This document shows positions 1 through 45,372 of a stretch of DNA of 47,282 bases, one piece after another (the first letter of the stretch is position 1; every line of letters begins with the position of its first letter). The position numbers and the translations under genes are program-made. The stretch is taken from the NCBI GenBank assembly GCA_030426085.1, contig JAUHYW010000077.1, positions 1 to 47,282 of the forward strand, read 5' to 3'. Under the pieces are notes generated by a model that saw nothing but the letters and a program-made list of their open reading frames with translations, made no database searches and was not told the DNA's origin. Source of the stretch: a bacterium. Its GTDB lineage: Bacteria > Myxococcota_A > Bradymonadia > UBA7976 > UBA1532.

Positions 1-1083
1 ACGACGGGGTGAACGAGACCGCCGGGCCTCCGCCCTGCACCGGCGGCGCCACCGAAGCCTGTCGGGACAACTGCGAGTTCACCCGCAACCCCGACCAGTC
101 CGACATCGACGGCGATGGCATCGGCGATGCCTGTGACGATGATATCGACGGCGACACCCTCACCAACGCCCAGGAAGAAGCCTTCACCACGAACCCGGAG
201 CATCCGGATACCGACGGTGATGGTCGTCGGGACGACACCGACAACTGTCGCGTCTCCTTCAACCCCAACCAGACGGACACCGACGATGATGGTCTGGGCG
301 ATGCATGTGACGACGACGACGACGACGACGAGATCGAGGACGTCGGTCCCAACGGTGCTCCGCTCGACAACTGCCCGCTCATCGCCAACGTCGACCAGGC
401 CGACGCCGACGGGGACGGCCTGGGAGACGTATGCGACGAGGACGACGATGACGACGGGATCGTCGAGACCAATGTCCCGCCCCGCCCGCCATGCACCGGC
501 GACCTGCTCGAAGAGTGCCGCGACAATTGCCCGGGGGTCGCCAACCCGCTCCAGGACGATCTCGACGAAGATGGCATCGGAGACGCCTGCGACCGCGACA
601 CTGACGCCGATGGCGTCCGCGATCCCGAGGACGCCGTGCCCCCTGAGGCGAGAGACAACTGCCCCCGCACCCCGAACCGGGATCAGCTCGATCAAGATGG
701 CGACGGCCACGGCCGCGCGTGCGATCCCGATGACGACGACGACGGGGTGAACGAGACCGCCGGGCCTCCGCCCTGCACCGGCGGCGCCACCGAAGCCTGT
801 CGGGACAACTGCGAGTTCACCCGCAACCCCGACCAGTCCGACATCGACGGCGATGGCATCGGCGACGCCTGTGACGAAGACATCGACGGCGACACCCTCA
901 CCAACGCCCAGGAAGAGGTCTTCACCACGAACCCGGAGCACCCGGATACCGACGGTGATGGTGATCGGGACGACACCGACAACTGTCGCGTCTCCTTCAA
1001 CCCCAGCCAGACGGACACTGACGAAGATGGTCTGGGCGACGCGTGCGACGAGGACGACGACAACGATGACGTCGCGGATCGCA
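1..1083 (+). repeat. 738-bp higher-order tandem duplication in the TSP3 region
   Basis: Bases 1 to about 330 recur almost unchanged at 739 to about 1070, an offset of exactly 738 bp (246 codons). The surrounding modules also correspond but are more diverged, so the unit is a block of several TSP3 modules. Because the window begins inside the first copy, further copies may lie upstream. Confidence 0.85.
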
Positions 1084-4000
1084 ACCCCGACGGCACCCCG
1101 CTCGACAACTGCCCGCAGATCGCGAACTTCGATCAAGCTGACGTCGACAATGACGACATTGGTGATGTCTGCGACCCCGATGCCGACGGCGACGGGTATG
1201 GGGAGAGCGCTGCCTTGGAGCCACCATGCCCCACTGGCGGCCTCCCAGGCTGTCGGGACAACTGCCCCACCGTCGCGAACGCTGATCAGGCGGATCTCGA
1301 CGAGGACGGTATTGGCGATGCCTGCGAGGACGACACCGACGGCGATGGCAGGCGTGACGCGGACGACAACTGCGACTGGGTGAGCAACGCCGAGCAGGAC
1401 GATCTGGACCAGGATGATGCGGGCGACGCTTGTGACGAGGACGATGACGGCGACGGCATCGCCGAGAACGAAGGGACGGGCTTGCCTGCATGCAGTCCTG
1501 CTCAGCTACAGGACTGTCGGGACAATTGCCCCCGAACGTCCAACCCGGAGCAGAGAGATGTCGATGAGGATGGCATCGGCGATGCGTGCGACATCGACAC
1601 CGACGGTGATGGCATCCAGGAAGCCGAAGAGGCGGGGCCGGTATGCCGAGGGGGACGTATCGAGGGATGCCGCGACAACTGCCCCGACGATATCAACCCG
1701 AATCAGGCTGACTTGGACGGCGATGGCATCGGGGATGTCTGCGACGACGACAAGGACGGCGACGGCGTATTCCAGGACGTGGAAGATGGCGACAACTGCC
1801 CCGAAGACCCGAACGCCGATCAGGCCGACCAGGATGGCGACGGGGTCGGAAACGTCTGCGATCCCGACCCCGACAACGACGGGCTCGAAGGTGACGATGA
1901 CAACTGTCCGCTTGACCCCGACCCCCAACGCGACACCGACGGCGATGGGCAAGGCGACGGTTGCGACCACGATGACGACGACGATGGCGAACCAGACGGG
2001 TCGGACAATTGCCAGTTCGCGCCCAACCCGGATCAGGACGACCTCGACGGCGACGGCGAGGGCGACGCCTGTGATGATGACTTCGACGGAGACGGCGTCT
2101 ACAACGGCGACGACAACTGCCCGCTCATCCGCAATGGCTTCGGCGAGCCTGCCGACATCGATGGCGACGGTCGCGACGACCACAACCAGTTGGACACGGA
2201 CGGCGATGGTGACGGTGACGCGTGCGACGACGACGATGACAATGACGGCGTCAACGACGAACCCGACGACTGCCCGACCATCGCCAACAGCCCGGGTGAG
2301 AACAACGACGGAGAGGGCAACGGCGACGCTTGCGACCCCAACGACGACTTCGACGACGTCGACGACGCCCTCGAGATCCGGCTGGGCACCAGCACCCTGA
2401 GCGACAACACGGATGGCTCCGGACAGGTCGACGGCGTCGACCTCTGCCCGCTGGTCCGGCCGGGTGAGGGCGAAGACGAGCAGGACGCCGACACCGACTT
2501 CCGCTCCACGGCGTGTGACGCGGACGACGACAACGACGGGGTGCCCGACGCGGACGACAACTGCCCGCGGACCTACAACCCCTGGCAGCCCGACCGCGAC
2601 GCCGATGGCGAGGGCGACGCCTGCGACGGCGATGACGACGAGACCCCGCTGGAGCCGGACACCGACGGGGACGGCGTGATCGATCGGTTCGATACGTGCC
2701 CGGCGATCGCGAACGATCAGGCGATCGACATGGACCGGGACGGGATCGGCGACCCGTGCGATCCCGACGTCGACGGGGACGGCCTCTCCGATGTAGACGA
2801 TACCTGCCCGAACGCCCCCAGCAACCTCAGCCTGCACGAGAGCGCCGCGGGGCTGGTCGACCTCGATGGGCAGCCCCGCGGTGGCGAGTTCTGGGACGCG
2901 CTCGGCCGGCTGAGTTGCACTCTCGATCCCGACGGGGACGGCGTGGGCTGGCTGGTCGATGGTCGCCGGGACAACTGCCGCTTCACACCCAACCGCGATC
3001 AGACCGACGACGACGGCGACGGCGTGGGCGACGCGTGCCAGGTGCCCCCGGGCGAGGATGACCCGACCCGGGACTTCGATGGCGACCGCATCTTCGACGA
3101 GGCCGACAACTGCCCGTACACCGCCAACGTGAGCCAGGGCGACCGCGACCGGGACGGCTTCGGCGACGCCTGCGACCAGGATCGAGACGGCGACGGGCTG
3201 GCCGAGTTCCGGGGGCCGGGGGACGACTTCGAGCGGGATCGGCGGATGTTCGCGGCGGACACGTATGACACCTGCCCCTCGCTCGCGAACGCCGAGAACG
3301 ACGACCTGGACGGCGACGGGTTCGGTGACGCGTGCGACAGCGACGCCGACGACGATGGGATCCTGGATACGCTGGACAACTGCCCGGGGGTCGACAATCC
3401 ACGGCAGGCGGACCTCGACGGGGATGGCATCGGCGACGACTGCGAGTCGGACACCGACGGGGACGGCCAGCCGGATGACGTCGACGCCTGCCCGAGGACC
3501 TGGGACCCGGGGCACTTCGGCGATGATCCCTGCGCCGGTGAGGGGCTGCTCGCACTGCCCGGCTTCGACGTCGGGCACTGCCGGCGCTCCCGCTTCGATC
3601 GCACTCTGCCCGACCTGGACGGGGACGGGATGCCCGACGTGTGTGATCTGGACCAGGACGGGGATGGCATCTTCGACGCCAACGAGGAGCCGGGCTGTGA
3701 GCGCACCCCCGACCACCGCCGGGCAGAGGGGCTGGACGCGCCGGGCACCGTGCAGAACGGCGCGTGCGAGGAGGGCGCCGAGCGGGACTTCGACCGCGAT
3801 GGCATCCCCGACGTCGAAGACGACTGCCGCTTCGAGCCGGTCGGTGAGGCGCCGCCGGGCGACGCCGGGACATGGTGCGACGAGAGCGTGACCCTGTTCT
3901 GCGCGAACGGGACGTCGAGCCACGACTGTGACGGCGACGGACAGCCCAACTACGACGACAACTGCCCCGAGGTGCGCAACGACCCGGGGCGGGACCATGT

Positions 4001-7000
4001 CGACAGCGACCGGGACGGCGTCGGCGATCCGTGCGATCGGGACCGCGACGGGGACGGCCTCCCGAATACGCTGGCGAGCGACCCGGAGGGCGACGTGACG
4101 CCGTGCCAGTTGGGGTGCCATCTGTATGGCGACGCCTTCGTCGCGCTGGGCTGCGCCACCTGCTTCGACAACTGCCCCGCCGTGGCCAACCGCGACCAGC
4201 GGGACACCGACGGCGACGGTAAAGGCGATGCGTGTGACGCCGACGATGACGAAGACGGACACCCGGACACCGACGACCCGTGCCCGTTGCTCCCCGATGC
4301 GGAGAGGGCTGCCGATCAGGACGAGGATGGCCTCGGTGATCCGTGTGACCCGGACACGGACGGCGACGGGGTTCTGGAGGACGGGGACCCGGTGCCGGTC
4401 GAGGCGCGGGCGTCCCGGATCGTGGATGGCGCGCTCGTCGAGGGGCGCCTCGTGTTCGGAGGCGACGCGGATGGGATCGAGCGGAACCCGTGCGACTCCG
4501 GGCAGCGGATGGGCTGCGACGACAACTGCCCGGGGGTCCCCAACCCCAACCAGCGGGACACCGACCACGATGGAATCGGCGACGCCTGCGATGACGACGA
4601 CGACGGAGATGGCTTGGCCGACCCCTTCGACCCGTGCATCGTCCTTGAGGGCTGGCGGCTCGTCGATCCGGCCACGCACGGCACGGTCGACGAGTTCTGC
4701 GAGCCCGACCGGGACGGGGATGAGGTCCCCGACCCCTACGACAACTGTCCGTGGGTCCGCAATGCGGAGGAGCGGCTGTCCCAGTGCGGGGCCGATGGCG
4801 ACGCATCGTGCCCTCCGATCCAGTGGGACGCCGACGCCGATGGCGTAGGGGACATCTGCGAGGCCACGGACGAGGAGGGCTGGGCCGACGTCGACGATGA
4901 CGGAGAGCCCGCGCCGCGCGTGGGCGCTGATGGTTCGGTCGGCGATAACTGCCCCAGCCTGCCCAACCCCCGGCAGGTGGTGGTCCCCGAGACCGAAGAG
5001 CCGGTGGCCTGCACCGACGACGCCGACAGCGACGGGGTCCGCATCGGGCGAGGCGACCCCTGCGATGCCGACGACGTCGCCGACGGCAACCTGGAGTTCT
5101 GCGACGACAACTGCCCGACCGTGCCCAACCCGAGCCAGATCGATCTGGACGGGGACGGCACCGGCGACGCGTGCGATGACGATGACGATGGCGACGAGAT
5201 CGATGACGTCGACGACAACTGCCCCCGTATCGCCAACAAGAACCCGGACGGTCCCCAACTCGACACGGATGGCGACGACAAGGGCGATGCGTGCGATACC
5301 GACGACGATGACGACGGCTTGAGCGACCGCTGCGAGCTGGGCTGTGTGGCCGGCCTGGGCGAGTTGGAGGTGACCCCGGCGGTCGTGTTCGACGAGGCGG
5401 CGGCGTGCGACGACGCCGAGGGTGCAGAAGAGCCATCGGCGGCGCTGCCCGGCTTGCCGACGGGCGCTCAGGACGCCCCCTGCGAAGTGCTCGACGAGCA
5501 GTTCGCGAAGCTGGACGAGGCGGATCGGGTCGAGGCGGAGTGTCCGCTGCCCGAGGGTCTGCTGACCGATCCCTTCGAGGCCGACAGCGACGGCGATGGC
5601 CGGACCGACTTCGAAGAGGTCGACCCCCAGGCCGCGGTCAAGACCAACCCCCGGATGGGTGACACCGACCGGGACGGGCTGTGTGATGGCACCGAGCTGG
5701 CATCGGGCTGGGATCCCGAGCGGGTGGTGCCGGTGGATGACGACGTGCCGGTCTGCGGCGAGTTCACCGGGACGTCTGCGATCCTCGAAGACACCGACGG
5801 GGACGGCATCATCGACGGCGCGGAGGTCGACGGGCTGCGGGCCGACTGCCGGGACACCGACACCGACGGCATCGCCGACGGTGACGAGCAGGAGGTGGGG
5901 ACCGCCCCGCTGATCGCGGACACTGACGGGGACGGGTATCCCGACGGGCAGGAGGTCCAGGTCCTCGAGGACGGGGAGGAGGTCTACACCTCGGACCCGC
6001 TCGACACCGCCGATACGCCGGATCACGCGGCGCAGGGGCGGCTGGTCAGCGGCTCGTGCACCCAGGCGGTCGGATCCGGGGCGCCGGGGGCCGGGTGGCT
6101 GGGGCTGATGCTGCTCGCGCTGGGGCTGCTCCGGCGGCGGGCGGGGGCCGCGACGGCCGCGGTGATGTTGCTGGTGATGCCCGGCGGTGCCGAGGCGCAG
6201 GGTGGGGCGCCCGAGGTCACCGTCACCGACACCCCGAGCGGGGGCTACAACACAGTGAACTTCCGGGAGTGGGCCGCCGACGGAGGCTGGTCGGGCATCC
6301 CCAGCGGGGCGCTGCCGCACCTGTATGCCGAGGTGATGCTGGCGGCGGGCTATACGCCGTCGCCGGTGGAGTTCGAGCGGGCGCCGGGCTTCGTGGCCGA
6401 GGATCCGACGGTCAGCGAGGCCCGGATCGACTCGGCGCTGAGCCTGGGCCTGGGGCTGTTCGACCGGCTCGAGCTGCGGGCGCACCTGCCGCTGCACATG
6501 GACACGGTCGGGTCGAACTACGAGGCGGACTTCGCCGCCGGCGGCGTGGGCGACCGGCTCGGCGACCTGGGGGTGATGCTCAAGGGCACGATCCTCGACG
6601 GGCGGCGGGAGACGGTCGGGGTCGCGGTGGCGGCGGTGGGCAACGTGCCGCTGGGCGACGGGGACTCGCTGCACAGCGACGGCGCCTTCGTGCCCGAGGC
6701 GGTGGTGGTCGTCGACGCGCTGCGGCTGGTGCCGGGGCTGGCGCTGACGGCGAACGTGGGCGGGCGGTGGCGGGCGGACGCGGCGGCGTTCTCCGAGGAG
6801 CCGGTCGGGCCGCAGGTGACCTGGGTCGGCACGGTGGGCTACGACGCCTATCGCAGCGGGTACGGGCTCTTCCGGCGGGCGGCGGTGCTGGCCGAGGCCC
6901 GGGGGGCCGAGGAGGTGGATGGGACCCGCGACCCGCGGCAGCTCGTGGTGGGCGGGCGGGTGCAGGTGGCGTCGGTGCTGGTCGGCGCGGGGCTGGGCAT

Positions 7001-8030
7001 CAACCTCAACCCCGCGGCGCCGGGGGTCGGGCCGTGGTCGGCGCTGCTGGGGGTCGCCTGGCAGAGCCAGCGGGACCGGGACGGGGACGAGCTGGAGGAC
7101 GCGCTGGACATGTGCCCCGACGGGCCGGAGGACTTCGACGGCTTCGAGGACGACGACGGCTGCGCCGACACCGACAACGACGGGGATGGCATCCCCGACG
7201 TCGAGGATGGGATCGAGCCGGGGGCCGAGTTCGGGCGCTGCCGGGACGAGCCGGAGGATCTGGATGGCTTCGAGGATCAGGACGGCTGCCCCGAGCTGGA
7301 CAACGACCGGGATGGCTTGCCGGATGACATCGATCAGTGCAAGTCGGTGCCCGAAGACATGAACGGGGTGGTGGACGACGACGGCTGCCCCGACGCCGAC
7401 TCCGACGGAGACACCTTCCTCGACTATCAGGACGACTGCCCCGGTGTGCCGTGCAAGGCGGGCGAGACCTGCGAGGCGGGCTGCCCCGACACCGACGGGG
7501 ACGGGGTGCTCGATCGCACCGACGAGTGCCCCGCCTCGCCGTGCCTGCCGGGTCAGGGGTGTTATCTGGGCTGCCCCGACGCGGACGACGACGGGGTGCC
7601 CGACACGAAGGACGTCTGCCCCGATCAGATCGAGGACGAGCCGGACGGCAACGCGCCCGATGGCTGCCCGGGCGAGCAGTCGGACCGGGACGGGGACGGG
7701 GTGCCCGATCGCATGGATCGCTGCCCCGATCGCAAGGACTACGTCGGCATCAACTACGCCAACCGGGATGGCTGCCCCAAGCCCGACCGGGACAAGGACG
7801 AGGTGCCCGACGAGGTCGACGCCTGCCCCGACGAGAAGGAGGATCTGTTCACCGGCCAGGTGGACGGGTGCCCCGGCGCGGCGAAGCCGGAGACGCAGTC
7901 GGGCGATCGGTGTCCGCCGGGGGCCGATCTGCCCGACAGCGACGGCGACGGGCTGCCCGATTGCCGCGACAAGTGCCCGGCGATGCCCGAGGACGACGCA
8001 GGCGCCATCGACGGATGCCCGGAGGCCTGA
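1..8030 (+). CDS. Giant TSP3-repeat protein fused to an outer-membrane beta-barrel (5' partial)
   Basis: The reading frame is open from base 3, so the true start lies upstream; the GTG at base 9 is internal to a repeat and is not a credible start. From there the visible part is about 2673 residues. Residues 1 to about 2010 are back-to-back thrombospondin type 3 modules of the form DxDxDGxxDxxDNCP, extremely rich in Asp; in known families these bind calcium and form rigid extracellular stalks. Residues 2017-2045 resemble a MYXO-CTERM sorting signal (Cys, Gly-rich stretch, hydrophobic helix, three Arg). It is followed without a stop by a signal-peptide-like segment ending AEAQ, a beta-barrel-like domain (about 2060-2360) and more TSP3 modules to the end. 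No OmpA domain follows. The layout looks like two proteins joined in frame. The stop overlaps the kinase start (TGATG). Confidence 0.85.
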   Translation, partial: DGVNETAGPPPCTGGATEACRDNCEFTRNPDQSDIDGDGIGDACDDDIDGDTLTNAQEEAFTTNPEHPDTDGDGRRDDTDNCRVSFNPNQTDTDDDGLGDACDDDDDDDEIEDVGPNGAPLDNCPLIANVDQADADGDGLGDVCDEDDDDDGIVETNVPPRPPCTGDLLEECRDNCPGVANPLQDDLDEDGIGDACDRDTDADGVRDPEDAVPPEARDNCPRTPNRDQLDQDGDGHGRACDPDDDDDGVNETAGPPPCTGGATEACRDNCEFTRNPDQSDIDGDGIGDACDEDIDGDTLTNAQEEVFTTNPEHPDTDGDGDRDDTDNCRVSFNPSQTDTDEDGLGDACDEDDDNDDVADRNPDGTPLDNCPQIANFDQADVDNDDIGDVCDPDADGDGYGESAALEPPCPTGGLPGCRDNCPTVANADQADLDEDGIGDACEDDTDGDGRRDADDNCDWVSNAEQDDLDQDDAGDACDEDDDGDGIAENEGTGLPACSPAQLQDCRDNCPRTSNPEQRDVDEDGIGDACDIDTDGDGIQEAEEAGPVCRGGRIEGCRDNCPDDINPNQADLDGDGIGDVCDDDKDGDGVFQDVEDGDNCPEDPNADQADQDGDGVGNVCDPDPDNDGLEGDDDNCPLDPDPQRDTDGDGQGDGCDHDDDDDGEPDGSDNCQFAPNPDQDDLDGDGEGDACDDDFDGDGVYNGDDNCPLIRNGFGEPADIDGDGRDDHNQLDTDGDGDGDACDDDDDNDGVNDEPDDCPTIANSPGENNDGEGNGDACDPNDDFDDVDDALEIRLGTSTLSDNTDGSGQVDGVDLCPLVRPGEGEDEQDADTDFRSTACDADDDNDGVPDADDNCPRTYNPWQPDRDADGEGDACDGDDDETPLEPDTDGDGVIDRFDTCPAIANDQAIDMDRDGIGDPCDPDVDGDGLSDVDDTCPNAPSNLSLHESAAGLVDLDGQPRGGEFWDALGRLSCTLDPDGDGVGWLVDGRRDNCRFTPNRDQTDDDGDGVGDACQVPPGEDDPTRDFDGDRIFDEADNCPYTANVSQGDRDRDGFGDACDQDRDGDGLAEFRGPGDDFERDRRMFAADTYDTCPSLANAENDDLDGDGFGDACDSDADDDGILDTLDNCPGVDNPRQADLDGDGIGDDCESDTDGDGQPDDVDACPRTWDPGHFGDDPCAGEGLLALPGFDVGHCRRSRFDRTLPDLDGDGMPDVCDLDQDGDGIFDANEEPGCERTPDHRRAEGLDAPGTVQNGACEEGAERDFDRDGIPDVEDDCRFEPVGEAPPGDAGTWCDESVTLFCANGTSSHDCDGDGQPNYDDNCPEVRNDPGRDHVDSDRDGVGDPCDRDRDGDGLPNTLASDPEGDVTPCQLGCHLYGDAFVALGCATCFDNCPAVANRDQRDTDGDGKGDACDADDDEDGHPDTDDPCPLLPDAERAADQDEDGLGDPCDPDTDGDGVLEDGDPVPVEARASRIVDGALVEGRLVFGGDADGIERNPCDSGQRMGCDDNCPGVPNPNQRDTDHDGIGDACDDDDDGDGLADPFDPCIVLEGWRLVDPATHGTVDEFCEPDRDGDEVPDPYDNCPWVRNAEERLSQCGADGDASCPPIQWDADADGVGDICEATDEEGWADVDDDGEPAPRVGADGSVGDNCPSLPNPRQVVVPETEEPVACTDDADSDGVRIGRGDPCDADDVADGNLEFCDDNCPTVPNPSQIDLDGDGTGDACDDDDDGDEIDDVDDNCPRIANKNPDGPQLDTDGDDKGDACDTDDDDDGLSDRCELGCVAGLGELEVTPAVVFDEAAACDDAEGAEEPSAALPGLPTGAQDAPCEVLDEQFAKLDEADRVEAECPLPEGLLTDPFEADSDGDGRTDFEEVDPQAAVKTNPRMGDTDRDGLCDGTELASGWDPERVVPVDDDVPVCGEFTGTSAILEDTDGDGIIDGAEVDGLRADCRDTDTDGIADGDEQEVGTAPLIADTDGDGYPDGQEVQVLEDGEEVYTSDPLDTADTPDHAAQGRLVSGSCTQAVGSGAPGAGWLGLMLLALGLLRRRAGAATAAVMLLVMPGGAEAQGGAPEVTVTDTPSGGYNTVNFREWAADGGWSGIPSGALPHLYAEVMLAAGYTPSPVEFERAPGFVAEDPTVSEARIDSALSLGLGLFDRLELRAHLPLHMDTVGSNYEADFAAGGVGDRLGDLGVMLKGTILDGRRETVGVAVAAVGNVPLGDGDSLHSDGAFVPEAVVVVDALRLVPGLALTANVGGRWRADAAAFSEEPVGPQVTWVGTVGYDAYRSGYGLFRRAAVLAEARGAEEVDGTRDPRQLVVGGRVQVASVLVGAGLGINLNPAAPGVGPWSALLGVAWQSQRDRDGDELEDALDMCPDGPEDFDGFEDDDGCADTDNDGDGIPDVEDGIEPGAEFGRCRDEPEDLDGFEDQDGCPELDNDRDGLPDDIDQCKSVPEDMNGVVDDDGCPDADSDGDTFLDYQDDCPGVPCKAGETCEAGCPDTDGDGVLDRTDECPASPCLPGQGCYLGCPDADDDGVPDTKDVCPDQIEDEPDGNAPDGCPGEQSDRDGDGVPDRMDRCPDRKDYVGINYANRDGCPKPDRDKDEVPDEVDACPDEKEDLFTGQVDGCPGAAKPETQSGDRCPPGADLPDSDGDGLPDCRDKCPAMPEDDAGAIDGCPEA
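6054..6196 (+). other. Internal MYXO-CTERM-like signal followed by a signal-peptide-like segment
   Basis: Within the giant gene, codons 2017-2044 encode a Cys (bases 6057-6059), a Gly/Ala-rich linker, the hydrophobic stretch WLGLMLLALGLL and an Arg triplet (bases 6132-6140). Such signals normally end a protein. The frame instead continues into a short hydrophobic run and an AEAQ-type signal peptidase site. An in-frame ATG at 6108-6110 would give a second protein a plausible signal peptide (n-region with RRR, hydrophobic core, cleavage site). Whether the product is one chain or two is not decidable from sequence. Confidence 0.6.
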
Positions 8031-10651
8031 TGGACTTCAGACGCAATCAGACGGAGCGCGGGCCCGCAAGCGCGCCGTCGGGCACCGACGGCGACGACGG
8101 GGACGGGCTGCTCGATCTGTCGGTCCTGGTCTCGGTGCCGCCGGGGCGGGAGTCGGAGCAGCGGGGGCTGCTCGAGGCGATCGAGCCGATCAACGCGATG
8201 GCGAGCTGGCGCTATCTGACCCGGTTCCGGGCCCGGGGCAGCGCGGCGGTCACCGGTCAGATGGACGCGACGCTGCCGGTCGGCATGCTGGGGGGCGACG
8301 CCCGCGGCTTCGACGTGGTGCTGGGGCTGGTGCACGGTGATCCGCCGGTGGCCCTCGCCCGGTTGAGCCGGGCCGAGATCGAGCAGTGGCAGGCCCACGG
8401 GCCGTGGCTGGTGCTCATCGAGGAGCTGCACCCCGAGCCGGCGCGGGACGCGGCGACGATGCGCTATCGCAACGCGCTGCGCTCGCTCATCGACTGGGCG
8501 GCGACCCAGCCCCGGGTCATCGTCACCCACCGCATGCCGAGCGAGGATCTGGGCGCGGCGGCCCGGCACGTACTGGCCGATCTGGCCCGCCGGGTGTGGA
8601 TGGAGCGCAACCGGGTCGACCGGCTGGTGTGCCGTCAGTGCGGGTGGCAGATGCCGTTCGAGCGGTCGACCGGGCGCTGTCAGCGGGACGGATCGGTGAT
8701 GGTTCAGCCGGCGCTGCTCGAGCGGCGGCGGGTGCCGTCGTGGATCGGGGAGTTCCCGATCCACGGCGTGGTCGGGCGGGGCGCCTTCGGGCGGGTCTGG
8801 CTGTCGATGAGTGAGCACCGCGAGTGGGGGGCGCTCAAGACGCTGGTCGACGCGAGCGACGGCCACGCCATCGCCCGGCTGCACCGCGAGCTGGATCTGC
8901 TGTCGGCGATCGAGCACCCCCACATCGTGCGGGTGCTCGATCGGGCCGAGGTCGACGGCACGCCGGTGGGGTTGCTGGAGTATCTGCCGGGGCGCCCGCT
9001 GAAGTTCGTCGTCGACGCGCTGCCGCCGCGGCAGGTGCTCGATCTGATGGTCGATCTGCTGTCGGCCCTGGAGTCGATCCACCGCGGGGGCATCGTTCAC
9101 CGCGACCTGAAGCCGGGCAACATCATGCTGGTGGACGACCCCCGGCGGCCGGCCGATCCCCCGCGGCTGGTGCTGCTCGACTTCGGGCTGGGCAAGCATC
9201 AGGTGCACGCCCAGGAGGGGCTGACCAAGCACGGGATGGTGCTGGGCACGCCGAACTACATGGCGCCGGAGCAGTTCTTGCGGGCGTCGACGGTGGACGC
9301 CCGGGCCGACCTGTACGCGGTGGGCGCGATGCTCTACCTGGCGCTGACCCCCGACAAGCGGCTGCCGGTGCCTCCGCCCGAGCGGCTGGACGATCCGGTG
9401 GCGCTCGTCGACTTCATCACCCGGGTGCAGACGGCGGAGCCGACGCCCATCGGCCGGGGGGACATCCCGGCCGACGTCCAGGCGATCGTGATGCGGGCGC
9501 TGGCCCGGTCGCCGGACGATCGCTTCCCGTCGGCGGGCGATATGCGGCACGCGTTGTTGCAGGCGCTCGACCGGTGGGACGACGCCACCATCGATCAGGC
9601 CGATCGCTCGTGGACCCGGTGGTCCCCGTCGGCGGCGTACGTCGGCTATCACGCGCAGGGGCGCAGCTCGGCGATGTCGGACGTCACGGTGAGCAGCGAG
9701 AGCCTGCCGGTGACGCTGTCGTCCTCGCCCCACCTGCCGATCCAGGCCCGGCCGGGCTCGGCGCCGCGCCTGCCGCCGCCGCCGAGCGGCCCCGGGGCGG
9801 TGTCCGGGGCGTCGAGCCCGTCGGGCGCCGGGCGGGGCGGCTTCACCGCGGTGCTCGACGAGCCGTCGGTCCCGGGCGACGGCGCAGCGCCAGGGCCGTC
9901 GTCGGGGCCGCGCCCGGCGCCGGCCCGCCGGACCGCGGTGGACGACCGGACGCGCCTGTCGCCCCCCGTGCCGGCGTCCGGCGGGCGGCGGGCGGTCGTG
10001 ATCGCCGCGGCGGTCGCGCTGGTGGCGGCGGTCGCCGCGGCGGTGGTGTGGGTCGGCTGGCCCCGGCCGCTGCACGCCGTCGTCGCGGTGCACGCGGCGG
10101 ACGGCTCGGCGCTGGCCGGGGTGCAGGTCACGGTGGGCGGCGGCGCGTCGGCGACCACCGACGACCGCGGGCAGGTCCGCCTCGGCCTGGGCCCGCGGGG
10201 CGACGGGCCGTGGACGGTCACGGTCACCCCGCCCGACGGTCTGGCCGCCCGGGACGCGGCGACCCGGCAGCTCGCCGCCGACGCCGCCGACGAGGCCCGC
10301 GAGATCCGGCTGGCGTTCGAGCTCTTCAACCCCTACGCCGTGCTCAACCCCGGCGGCTCGCTGATCCCGGTCGAGCTGGGGGACGGCTTCCTCGTCACCC
10401 AGCGAGAGGTCACCGTCGGCGCGCTGCTGCCCGCGGGGCGGGCGGGGCTGCTCGTGCTGCCGGCGGGCACCGAGCTGCACGGGTGTCAGGGCGAGCCGTT
10501 CGTCGGCGGGGGCACGACGCCCGACCGCAGGCGGATCGAGCGGGCTCTCGAGCGCTGCATCGAGCGCCACACCCGGTCGCGGGTCGAGCTGCGCCTGCGC
10601 CGCCCGGGGGACGGCGAGCCGGTGACCGAGGTCTTCACGGTCGCGGGCTGA
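8030..10651 (+). CDS. Membrane Ser/Thr protein kinase with extracytoplasmic C-terminal region
   Basis: This 873-residue protein starts at the ATG that overlaps the upstream stop. Residues 1-200 form an N-terminal region I do not recognise, followed by a degenerate zinc-ribbon-like stretch (CRQCGW...CQRDG). The Hanks-type kinase domain spans about 240-510: glycine loop GRGAFG at 249, the lysine in ALK, HRDLKPGN at 357-364, DFG at 384 and APE at 412, all intact, so it should be active. A Pro/Ser-rich juxtamembrane linker leads to one transmembrane helix at about 654-676. The remaining 200 residues are outside the cytoplasm: an Ig-like carboxypeptidase-regulatory-type fold and then a segment resembling a degenerate PDZ domain. 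Position between envelope genes suggests it senses the state of the encoded outer-membrane assembly; that is inference. Confidence 0.9.
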   Translation: MDFRRNQTERGPASAPSGTDGDDGDGLLDLSVLVSVPPGRESEQRGLLEAIEPINAMASWRYLTRFRARGSAAVTGQMDATLPVGMLGGDARGFDVVLGLVHGDPPVALARLSRAEIEQWQAHGPWLVLIEELHPEPARDAATMRYRNALRSLIDWAATQPRVIVTHRMPSEDLGAAARHVLADLARRVWMERNRVDRLVCRQCGWQMPFERSTGRCQRDGSVMVQPALLERRRVPSWIGEFPIHGVVGRGAFGRVWLSMSEHREWGALKTLVDASDGHAIARLHRELDLLSAIEHPHIVRVLDRAEVDGTPVGLLEYLPGRPLKFVVDALPPRQVLDLMVDLLSALESIHRGGIVHRDLKPGNIMLVDDPRRPADPPRLVLLDFGLGKHQVHAQEGLTKHGMVLGTPNYMAPEQFLRASTVDARADLYAVGAMLYLALTPDKRLPVPPPERLDDPVALVDFITRVQTAEPTPIGRGDIPADVQAIVMRALARSPDDRFPSAGDMRHALLQALDRWDDATIDQADRSWTRWSPSAAYVGYHAQGRSSAMSDVTVSSESLPVTLSSSPHLPIQARPGSAPRLPPPPSGPGAVSGASSPSGAGRGGFTAVLDEPSVPGDGAAPGPSSGPRPAPARRTAVDDRTRLSPPVPASGGRRAVVIAAAVALVAAVAAAVVWVGWPRPLHAVVAVHAADGSALAGVQVTVGGGASATTDDRGQVRLGLGPRGDGPWTVTVTPPDGLAARDAATRQLAADAADEAREIRLAFELFNPYAVLNPGGSLIPVELGDGFLVTQREVTVGALLPAGRAGLLVLPAGTELHGCQGEPFVGGGTTPDRRRIERALERCIERHTRSRVELRLRRPGDGEPVTEVFTVAG

Positions 10652-43932: not shown

Positions 43933-44872
43933 CCGCGGCCGGCGCGGACGCCGATCGCGCTCTGCCGAGCAGCGCCGCGAGCAGCACCGGCACCTCGACC
44001 CAGGCGTGCACCGCGGCGATGACCCCGTACAGCCGCCGGCTGCCGCCGAAGTCGTGGGTGAAGGCGATCAGCGTGGCCCCGCCGACCGCCATCCACAGCG
44101 CCGCGAGCCACGGCGACGGCCGACCCCCGGCCAGCCGGGGCAGCAGGTGCAGCACCGCCGCGTAGTGCATGCACTGGGCGAAGACGAGCGCCGAGAAGAG
44201 GTGCACCGCCGCCGGCCGATCGAGCCACGGGCGGGGCACGTAGACCGGCAGGTGATCGGCCAGCGCGCCCGCGCCGAGCGGGGACCACTCCAGGGCATGG
44301 GCCCCGATCGCCTGGGCGGCGGCCAGCGGCCAGCCGGTCGCGATGAGCGCGGGCGCCAGCACGAAGGCGGCCACGGCCCCCACCAGCAGCCGGCGGTCGC
44401 CGGGGGCGGCCTCGGCGACGAAGCCCAGCGGGGTCAGGTTGTGCAGCCCGGCGAGCAGCACCGCGGTCAGCAGCGGATCGGCGATGGCCCCCAGCCCCAC
44501 CGCCAGGACGACCAGCGCGCCCGTCGCCGCCGCGCCGGCCCCCCGGCGCCACAGCAGCGGCAGAGTCGAGGCGGCGAGCGCGGCGACGGCCAGCAGCTCC
44601 AGGGGGCGCAGGGTGGACGCCGACGCCCGGCCCGACAGCGCCGCGACGCGCAGGCCGACCACGGCGAGCAACAGCACGCCGGTCACCGCCACCGCCGGCC
44701 ACGGCCAGCGGCCACCGAAGCGTCGGCGCACATAGCCCAGCTCGGCGAGCACATGGGGCAGCCCCAGCGCGGCGAGGCTGACGGTGTAGGTGGCGAGGGG
44801 GGCGGCGACGGCGGCGACGGCGAGCCCCAGCCCGGCGCCCGCCGCGGCGCCGGCCCGACGGGCGCGGCTCAC
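43922..44872 (-). CDS. Polytopic integral membrane protein
   Basis: A 316-residue protein starting at a GTG whose first bases overlap the upstream stop (GTGA). It has about eight or nine hydrophobic helices. Candidate functional residues lie near membrane boundaries: GLPHVLAELGYV after the first helix, LLAGLHNLTPLGFV in the middle and CMHYAAVLHLLPRL later, together giving several His that might bind a metal, quinone or carotenoid. I cannot place it in a family. Coupled translation with the upstream MYXO-CTERM-like gene suggests a shared process. Confidence 0.72.
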   Translation of the reverse strand: MSRARRAGAAAGAGLGLAVAAVAAPLATYTVSLAALGLPHVLAELGYVRRRFGGRWPWPAVAVTGVLLLAVVGLRVAALSGRASASTLRPLELLAVAALAASTLPLLWRRGAGAAATGALVVLAVGLGAIADPLLTAVLLAGLHNLTPLGFVAEAAPGDRRLLVGAVAAFVLAPALIATGWPLAAAQAIGAHALEWSPLGAGALADHLPVYVPRPWLDRPAAVHLFSALVFAQCMHYAAVLHLLPRLAGGRPSPWLAALWMAVGGATLIAFTHDFGGSRRLYGVIAAVHAWVEVPVLLAALLGRARSASAPAAVRS

Positions 44873-45372
44873 CGGCGCGTGCGGCGCAGGCCGATGGCCA
44901 GCAGGAGCCCCAGCGCCAGCGCACCCGCGCCGAACGGGCCGCCGGCGACGCCGGCGTCGCAGCCGCCCTTCCCCTCGGGCGCGGCCTGCGCCGGTTCGGG
45001 GGCCTTCTCGGCGGGGGCCTTCTCGGCGGGCGCCTCCTCCGGGGCGGTCTTCTCGGCGGGCGCCTTCTCCGGGGTCTTCTCGGCGGGCGCCTCGGCCTTC
45101 TCCGGGGCGGCGGCCGCCTCCCCCGGATGGCACTTCAGGCAGACGCGGCACTTCGTCTTCGGCGGCGTGCCCCCGCTGTAGTCGAGGCGGCAGCAGCGAT
45201 CGGGCTGACAGGTGCCCGGCCCGGTGTCCCCCTCGCACGGCGCGCCCTTCTCGGCGCCGCGGCAGCTCGCCTCGCTCATCGTGATCAGATCGGCGTGGGC
45301 GGCCCCCGAGCCGAGCAAAGCCAGCCCCCCGAAGCCGAGCAACAGCACACTCACCAGACCGACGCGCGCCAT
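44869..45372 (-). CDS. Secreted Cys-rich protein with MYXO-CTERM-like tail
   Basis: A 167-residue protein; ATG 45372 follows GGAGGG. A signal peptide (to about residue 27, AHA) precedes a module with nine Cys between residues about 35 and 80. Residues about 85-130 are repeats of EKAPAEK-type, a charged spacer. The end is a MYXO-CTERM-like signal: GGC, a Gly-rich stretch, the hydrophobic ALALGLLLAIGL and RRTRR. In myxobacteria such tails are cut and lipid-modified at the Cys, leading to surface display. It has its own good promoter. Confidence 0.78.
   Translation of the reverse strand: MARVGLVSVLLLGFGGLALLGSGAAHADLITMSEASCRGAEKGAPCEGDTGPGTCQPDRCCRLDYSGGTPPKTKCRVCLKCHPGEAAAAPEKAEAPAEKTPEKAPAEKTAPEEAPAEKAPAEKAPEPAQAAPEGKGGCDAGVAGGPFGAGALALGLLLAIGLRRTRR

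Follow-up and report, generated by a model that had tools for sequence, protein, structure and literature searches.

The giant open reading frame at the beginning of the window (the whole 47,282 bp stretch that was analysed, which makes up all of contig 6 of genome G000) is best understood as an example of an envelope polyprotein layout that recurs in Myxococcota. In a single frame, a stalk of TSP3 repeats is followed by an internal MYXO-CTERM sorting tag, a second signal peptide and an outer-membrane beta-barrel domain related to TraB. We put the probability that this gene encodes a polyprotein of the TraA/TraB type, read through as one chain and cut twice, at about 0.8, the two cuts being those predicted from its sorting signals.

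Parts of the gene and its junction

The frame (positions 3–8030, forward strand, 2,675 codons) runs across the junction without a stop. Its 5′ end is open and coincides with the end of the window, which is also the end of the contig, so the N-terminus and first signal peptide lie outside the view. G000 is a genome of 10.1 Mb in 178 contigs. The features of this region are as follows.

3–6047, forward: N-terminal TSP3-repeat stalk (32 stretches matching Pfam TSP_3, E = 3.6e-156; open frame)
6048–6140, forward: internal MYXO-CTERM tag (TIGR03901, 21.2 bits against a cut-off of 20, match at 6057–6140)
6057–6059, about 6096–6131 and 6132–6140, forward: elements of the tag, namely the Cys of SGS-Cys, the hydrophobic helix and RRR (read from the sequence)
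6108–6110, forward: ATG suggested earlier to be an internal start and rejected as such (within the tag helix; missing in G001)
6132–6197, forward: second signal peptide, with the RRR of the tag as its n-region (read from the sequence; predicted signal peptidase I cut at 6197/6198, between AEA and Q)
6198–7079, forward: TraB-related outer-membrane beta-barrel domain (NF033763, 19.5 bits; low-confidence model with about 12 strands, closest to the FapF fold)
7080–8030, forward: C-terminal TSP3 repeats and stop codon (only TSP_3 and TSP3_bac found in a Pfam scan of 5904–8030)
8030–10651, forward: downstream serine/threonine-kinase-like gene (66% identity to G001 over residues 41–545)

The junction reads, in order, RLVSGS, Cys (6057), TQAVGSGAPGAG, WLGLMLLALGLL, RRR and AGAATAAVMLLVMPGGAEA, followed by Q (6198), and the translation around it in the frame of the window is RLVSGSCTQAVGSGAPGAGWLGLMLLALGLLRRRAGAATAAVMLLVMPGGAEAQGGAPEV. 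The TIGR03901 score is only just above the curated cut-off. The Cys, the hydrophobic helix WLGLMLLALGLL and the Arg cluster are all present, and the 18 aligned junctions have this Cys without exception. MYXO-CTERM tags are normally C-terminal, whereas 629 in-frame residues follow this one. The initial annotation had described a MYXO-CTERM-like signal in the middle of a protein with a second signal peptide behind it, and this is confirmed by the profile match, the open frame and the same junction in G001, a genome of the same genus. A further tag, a terminal one, is found at 44872–44967 on the reverse strand of the window (19.5 bits, or 20.4 when the neighbours in the frame are included); its gene overlaps the next by four bases, and the latter has a signal-peptide-like start.

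The barrel domain falls far short of the curated equivalence cut-off of NF033763 (TraB), which is 700 bits. The same profile matches 13 of 14 aligned related barrels, the best with an E value of 2e-39, and the family thus appears to be related to TraB at large rather than to be TraB itself. Structure prediction for 6033–7121 from six sequences gave a poor model (mean pLDDT 49, pTM 0.51), in which two short helices flank the RRR and about 12 strands follow. The domain is read as a beta-barrel on the basis of the family's homology to TraB together with this low-confidence model, and the in-frame read-through into a barrel noted earlier is borne out to that extent. A Foldseek search with the model ranked FapF first, and a barrel profile (A2) gave a weak profile match to FapF that agrees with it. 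Among solved folds, that of FapF, a polypeptide-secreting barrel, is closest to the TraB-like barrel; the two routes agree, although the resemblance is weak.

An OmpA domain, present in most of the fully read fused relatives, was absent from the window protein in the Pfam scan of 5904–8030. The orthologue in G001 likewise ends in TSP3 repeats without OmpA, while the relatives in G047 and G036 carry it. The ATG of the downstream gene, which we take to be that of a kinase from sequence motifs and general knowledge, overlaps the stop of the giant frame by one base (TGATG). The same gene also adjoins the orthologue in G001, and it is perhaps co-translated with the giant frame.

Matches to TIGR03901 were found at 92 places in G000. 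The distance to the next stop was read for 73 of these (19 were left out), and 61 proved to be terminal and 12 internal. By one simple rule, applied together with inspection by eye and not with SignalP, an in-frame signal peptide follows all 12 internal tags, compared with 3 of the 61 terminal tags when these are read through the stop. Seven of the 12 lead into TraB-like barrels (the window, C31 twice, C70, C44, C173 and C17) and one (C34) into a small protein resembling another barrel. Three (C155, C150 and C5) are followed by lipoprotein-type second signals; a search for relatives of the downstream lipoprotein of C150 was swamped by repeat matches. The remaining tag (C47) is followed by a second DUF2330 protein that itself ends in MYXO-CTERM. 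At this last locus (L097, C47:86800–91700), two DUF2330 proteins, each with a MYXO-CTERM tag, lie in one frame with a signal peptide between them; it is a tandem duplication read as a double tag protein.

Conservation and recurrence in other genomes

The orthologue in G001 (contig C72) is an open frame of 3,415 amino acids with 58% identity over the query. It contains no stop and shares the Cys, the helix and the second signal peptide, with RRRR as its basic cluster. By the terms of the initial annotation, a stop near the junction or a missing tag in orthologues would have counted against its reading, and G001, with its open frame and conserved tag, showed the opposite. Four fused proteins were found in G047, a single-contig genome from another family of the same class, and one each in G036 and G019.

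Relatives detected with the barrel profile are present in all 57 genomes of the class and in 214 of 286 genomes of the phylum. Among the long-frame matches whose junctions were read, 40 fused barrels were found in 21 genomes, and 13 further fused junctions were read in five more (G125, G201, G209, G260 and G270), giving 53 junctions of stalk, tag, signal and barrel in 26 Myxococcota genomes from 13 families. As this sample was picked by frame length, it shows occurrence and not frequency. The N-terminal adhesins of the fused relatives vary (TSP3, bacterial Ig-like or DUF11), while the layout of Cys, hydrophobic helix, basic cluster, hydrophobic stretch, AxA and barrel is constant. One locus in G001 (L139, C81:135000–154900) holds an open frame of 7,322 amino acids with TSP3-type repeats, MYXO-CTERM, a second signal and a TraB-like barrel.

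These data bear on whether the long frame could stem from an assembly or sequencing error, or from recent loss of a stop codon in one strain. The genome is a draft of 178 contigs and this contig breaks off within the TSP3 repeats, but G001 shares the fusion and different genes show it in another 25 genomes, some of which consist of a single contig; such an origin is very improbable. Fusion of two genes, as put forward in the initial annotation, does not hold as a recent loss of a stop because the fused state is conserved; as an evolutionary origin it is supported by overlapping gene pairs beside fused sisters, described below.

Most genomes of the family carry the tag/lipoprotein pair of the C5 type (L071, L177–L182) as a fusion: reading of the frames showed it to be fused in G003, G006, G010 and G012, and full-length stop-free matches suggest that it is also fused in G004, G005, G009 and G011. 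In G001, the nearest relative, this pair is split, with the tag gene ending in RRRRRGEDQ and a stop ahead of a separate lipoprotein gene.

Start codons and the origin of the fused frame

If the barrel had a start of its own, a start codon would be required before or within the n-region of its signal peptide. Junctions were scanned for ATG, GTG and TTG, rare starts such as CTG being left out. In at least 14 of 39 junctions, that of the window included, none of the three occurs in the stretch that begins three codons ahead of the basic cluster and extends to the h-region, and at one of these junctions (C31:59304) none occurs over 70 codons. They are present in other fused junctions. It had been proposed that translation might begin internally in the window, at ATG 6108, and initiation there or at GTG, ATG or TTG at about 6162–6170 would give two products and make the long frame incidental. 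The window does hold this ATG and several start codons at about 6162–6176, and some fused relatives retain a Met near the junction, as in C51 of G001. However, ATG 6108 sits in the membrane helix of the tag, eight codons upstream of RRR, and has no counterpart in the G001 orthologue, while the later codons lie beyond the n-region of the second signal, and beginning at 6162 or after would leave a signal peptide that is too short and lacks an n-region. Together with the startless junctions, this makes internal starts a quite unlikely account of the window gene, and internal initiation is not the general explanation of fused junctions.

When 94 barrels were placed in a maximum-likelihood tree, 14 changes between the fused and the separate state were required, at least 10 of which are forced by well-supported branches. 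One such set links an unfused pair to fused sisters. In G007, the tag gene ends in ALWRRRRA and a stop, and the barrel gene MRTLTQALVLLAATVAAHPAAAQ starts within the same ATGA. The sister barrels in G000 and G001 are fused in frame; support is 100/100 for the three together and 100/99 for the two fused ones. The G001 sister (C51) retains its Met near the junction (RRRAYMAAATAALLL), and no start is left in that of G000 (RRRLLLPALLIAFAAPADAQ).

Exact four-base overlaps between a gene with a terminal tag and a gene with a signal-peptide-like start were found in eight cases in G000, and the raw material for fusions of the tag/barrel type is therefore plentiful. The gene immediately after a terminal-tag gene of G000 often has a signal-peptide-like start, several of these followers being lipoprotein-like, and a tag protein with a lipoprotein may be a common operon pair. 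From these sequences, the fused frames would have arisen when two adjacent genes, of a sort frequently found with a four-base overlap, were joined in frame. The reverse change, splitting of a fused frame, may also occur, as the split C5-type pair in G001 indicates.

Proposed processing, known systems and meaning

During Sec-dependent export, transfer halts at a hydrophobic helix with a basic cluster behind it, the basic side remaining in the cytoplasm. When such a cluster precedes a hydrophobic stretch and AxA, transfer begins again. Applied to the window, one mRNA and one frame would give a single precursor whose TSP3 stalk would leave via Sec. The MYXO-CTERM helix would act as a stop-transfer sequence that keeps RRR in the cytoplasm, and the next hydrophobic stretch, with the same RRR as its n-region, would re-start export. 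Since the two signals share one RRR, this topology closes without strain. Signal peptidase I would then cleave after AEA (6197/6198) and release the barrel to the outer membrane, and a myxosortase would cleave just past Cys 6057, which is probably lipidated, freeing the stalk for anchoring at the surface. A two-helix hairpin would remain after both cuts, stalk and barrel would be made 1:1, and the gene would have been retained as one frame after the in-frame joining of its two neighbours.

The MYXO-CTERM of TraA from Myxococcus xanthus is cut by MrtX, cleavage depends on conserved Cys residues, and lipidation of the Cys before cutting has been proposed (PMC11980579). Among the proteins of G000 is a MrtP-type myxosortase (357.6 bits, cut-off 250). 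MrtX was considered as an identity for this protein and rejected, its score being below the MrtX cut-off. By analogy with the TraA system, MrtP is the putative enzyme for the window tag, which has more chain behind it.

The helix pair might instead be a mere membrane hairpin that is not cut at the tag, in which case the stalk would remain attached to the barrel or the barrel alone would be set free. The marginal profile score of the tag is compatible with this, as is the linker of about 40 residues from AEA to the first strand of the window protein, and cleavage is something we infer. The invariant Cys is, in contrast, as expected of a processed tag, a myxosortase is encoded in the genome, and the shorter linkers of other fused members would make a tether from inner to outer membrane unlikely. 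If the cut after AEA failed, the barrel would have little chance of reaching the outer membrane, particularly where the linker is short. We consider an uncut tag unlikely. The earlier suggestion that one chain is cut into a stalk and a barrel is the best supported, on the grounds of anatomy, expected topology, conservation and the myxosortase gene.

Internal MYXO-CTERM motifs are known in rare cases, among them MXAN_5598 of M. xanthus, a large adhesin with an internal MYXO-CTERM, an outer-membrane barrel and OmpA, which was described as atypical; its authors suggested that two genes may have fused, drew a parallel with TraA plus TraB and proposed processing (PMC11980579). Compared by description only, the window protein resembles it in combining adhesin, internal tag and barrel in one frame, and differs in lacking OmpA and in its second signal peptide, a part not mentioned for MXAN_5598. 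Its downstream neighbour is the kinase-like gene; an ftsA/ftsZ neighbourhood would be expected of MXAN_5598, and none was recognised in G201.

The traA and traB genes of M. xanthus overlap by four bases, as do those of the unfused pair in G007, and they too encode a surface stalk with MYXO-CTERM just upstream of a barrel of the TraB family (PMC3325183). They are two genes in two frames, unlike the single frame of the window; TraA has PA14 and Cys-rich repeats where the window stalk has TSP3, and the barrel of the window scores far under the cut-off for TraB. MtsC, a cell-cell cohesion protein (NF047638), also combines TSP3 repeats with MYXO-CTERM, but the window tag is internal and followed by a barrel. 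The NF047638 score of the window protein (818, cut-off 350) is summed over 19 repeat stretches and is weak evidence of orthology.

To our knowledge, bacterial polyproteins are few. In FbcH of Bradyrhizobium, a cytochrome b/c1 polyprotein, signal peptidase cleaves at an internal signal peptide, and two exported proteins result. It shares with the window protein the single chain and the internal signal peptide, and differs in comprising inner-membrane respiratory subunits, with no sorting tag and no second, sortase-like cut. The literature searched, with incomplete coverage, yielded no account of junctions that include a second signal peptide, of recurrence over many families, of lipoprotein or double-tag versions, of startless junctions or of fused beside overlapping sisters. 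The recurrence, the second signal and the lipoprotein partners thus appear to be new, the kind itself being on record through one example, MXAN_5598.

With less confidence than for the window gene itself, we favour the broader reading that Myxococcota have a general envelope polyprotein route, in which a tag (stop-transfer) followed by a signal peptide (re-start) yields two exported proteins per frame. The partners would be a tag protein with a barrel or a lipoprotein, or two tag proteins, fixed at 1:1 and processed by myxosortase and signal peptidase I or II. Such frames would have evolved repeatedly, probably from four-base overlaps.

If the cuts occur, surface-sorting tags serve as junctions as well as protein ends, and the annotation assumption that a tag marks the C-terminus and a signal peptide the N-terminus fails for about one-sixth of the G000 tags read. 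The passage from a two-gene operon to a single reading frame can be traced between close relatives. Fused pairs also name likely partners, matching each surface stalk to the barrel or lipoprotein that it works with, and this offers a direct route into the TraA/TraB-like adhesion systems of uncultured Myxococcota.
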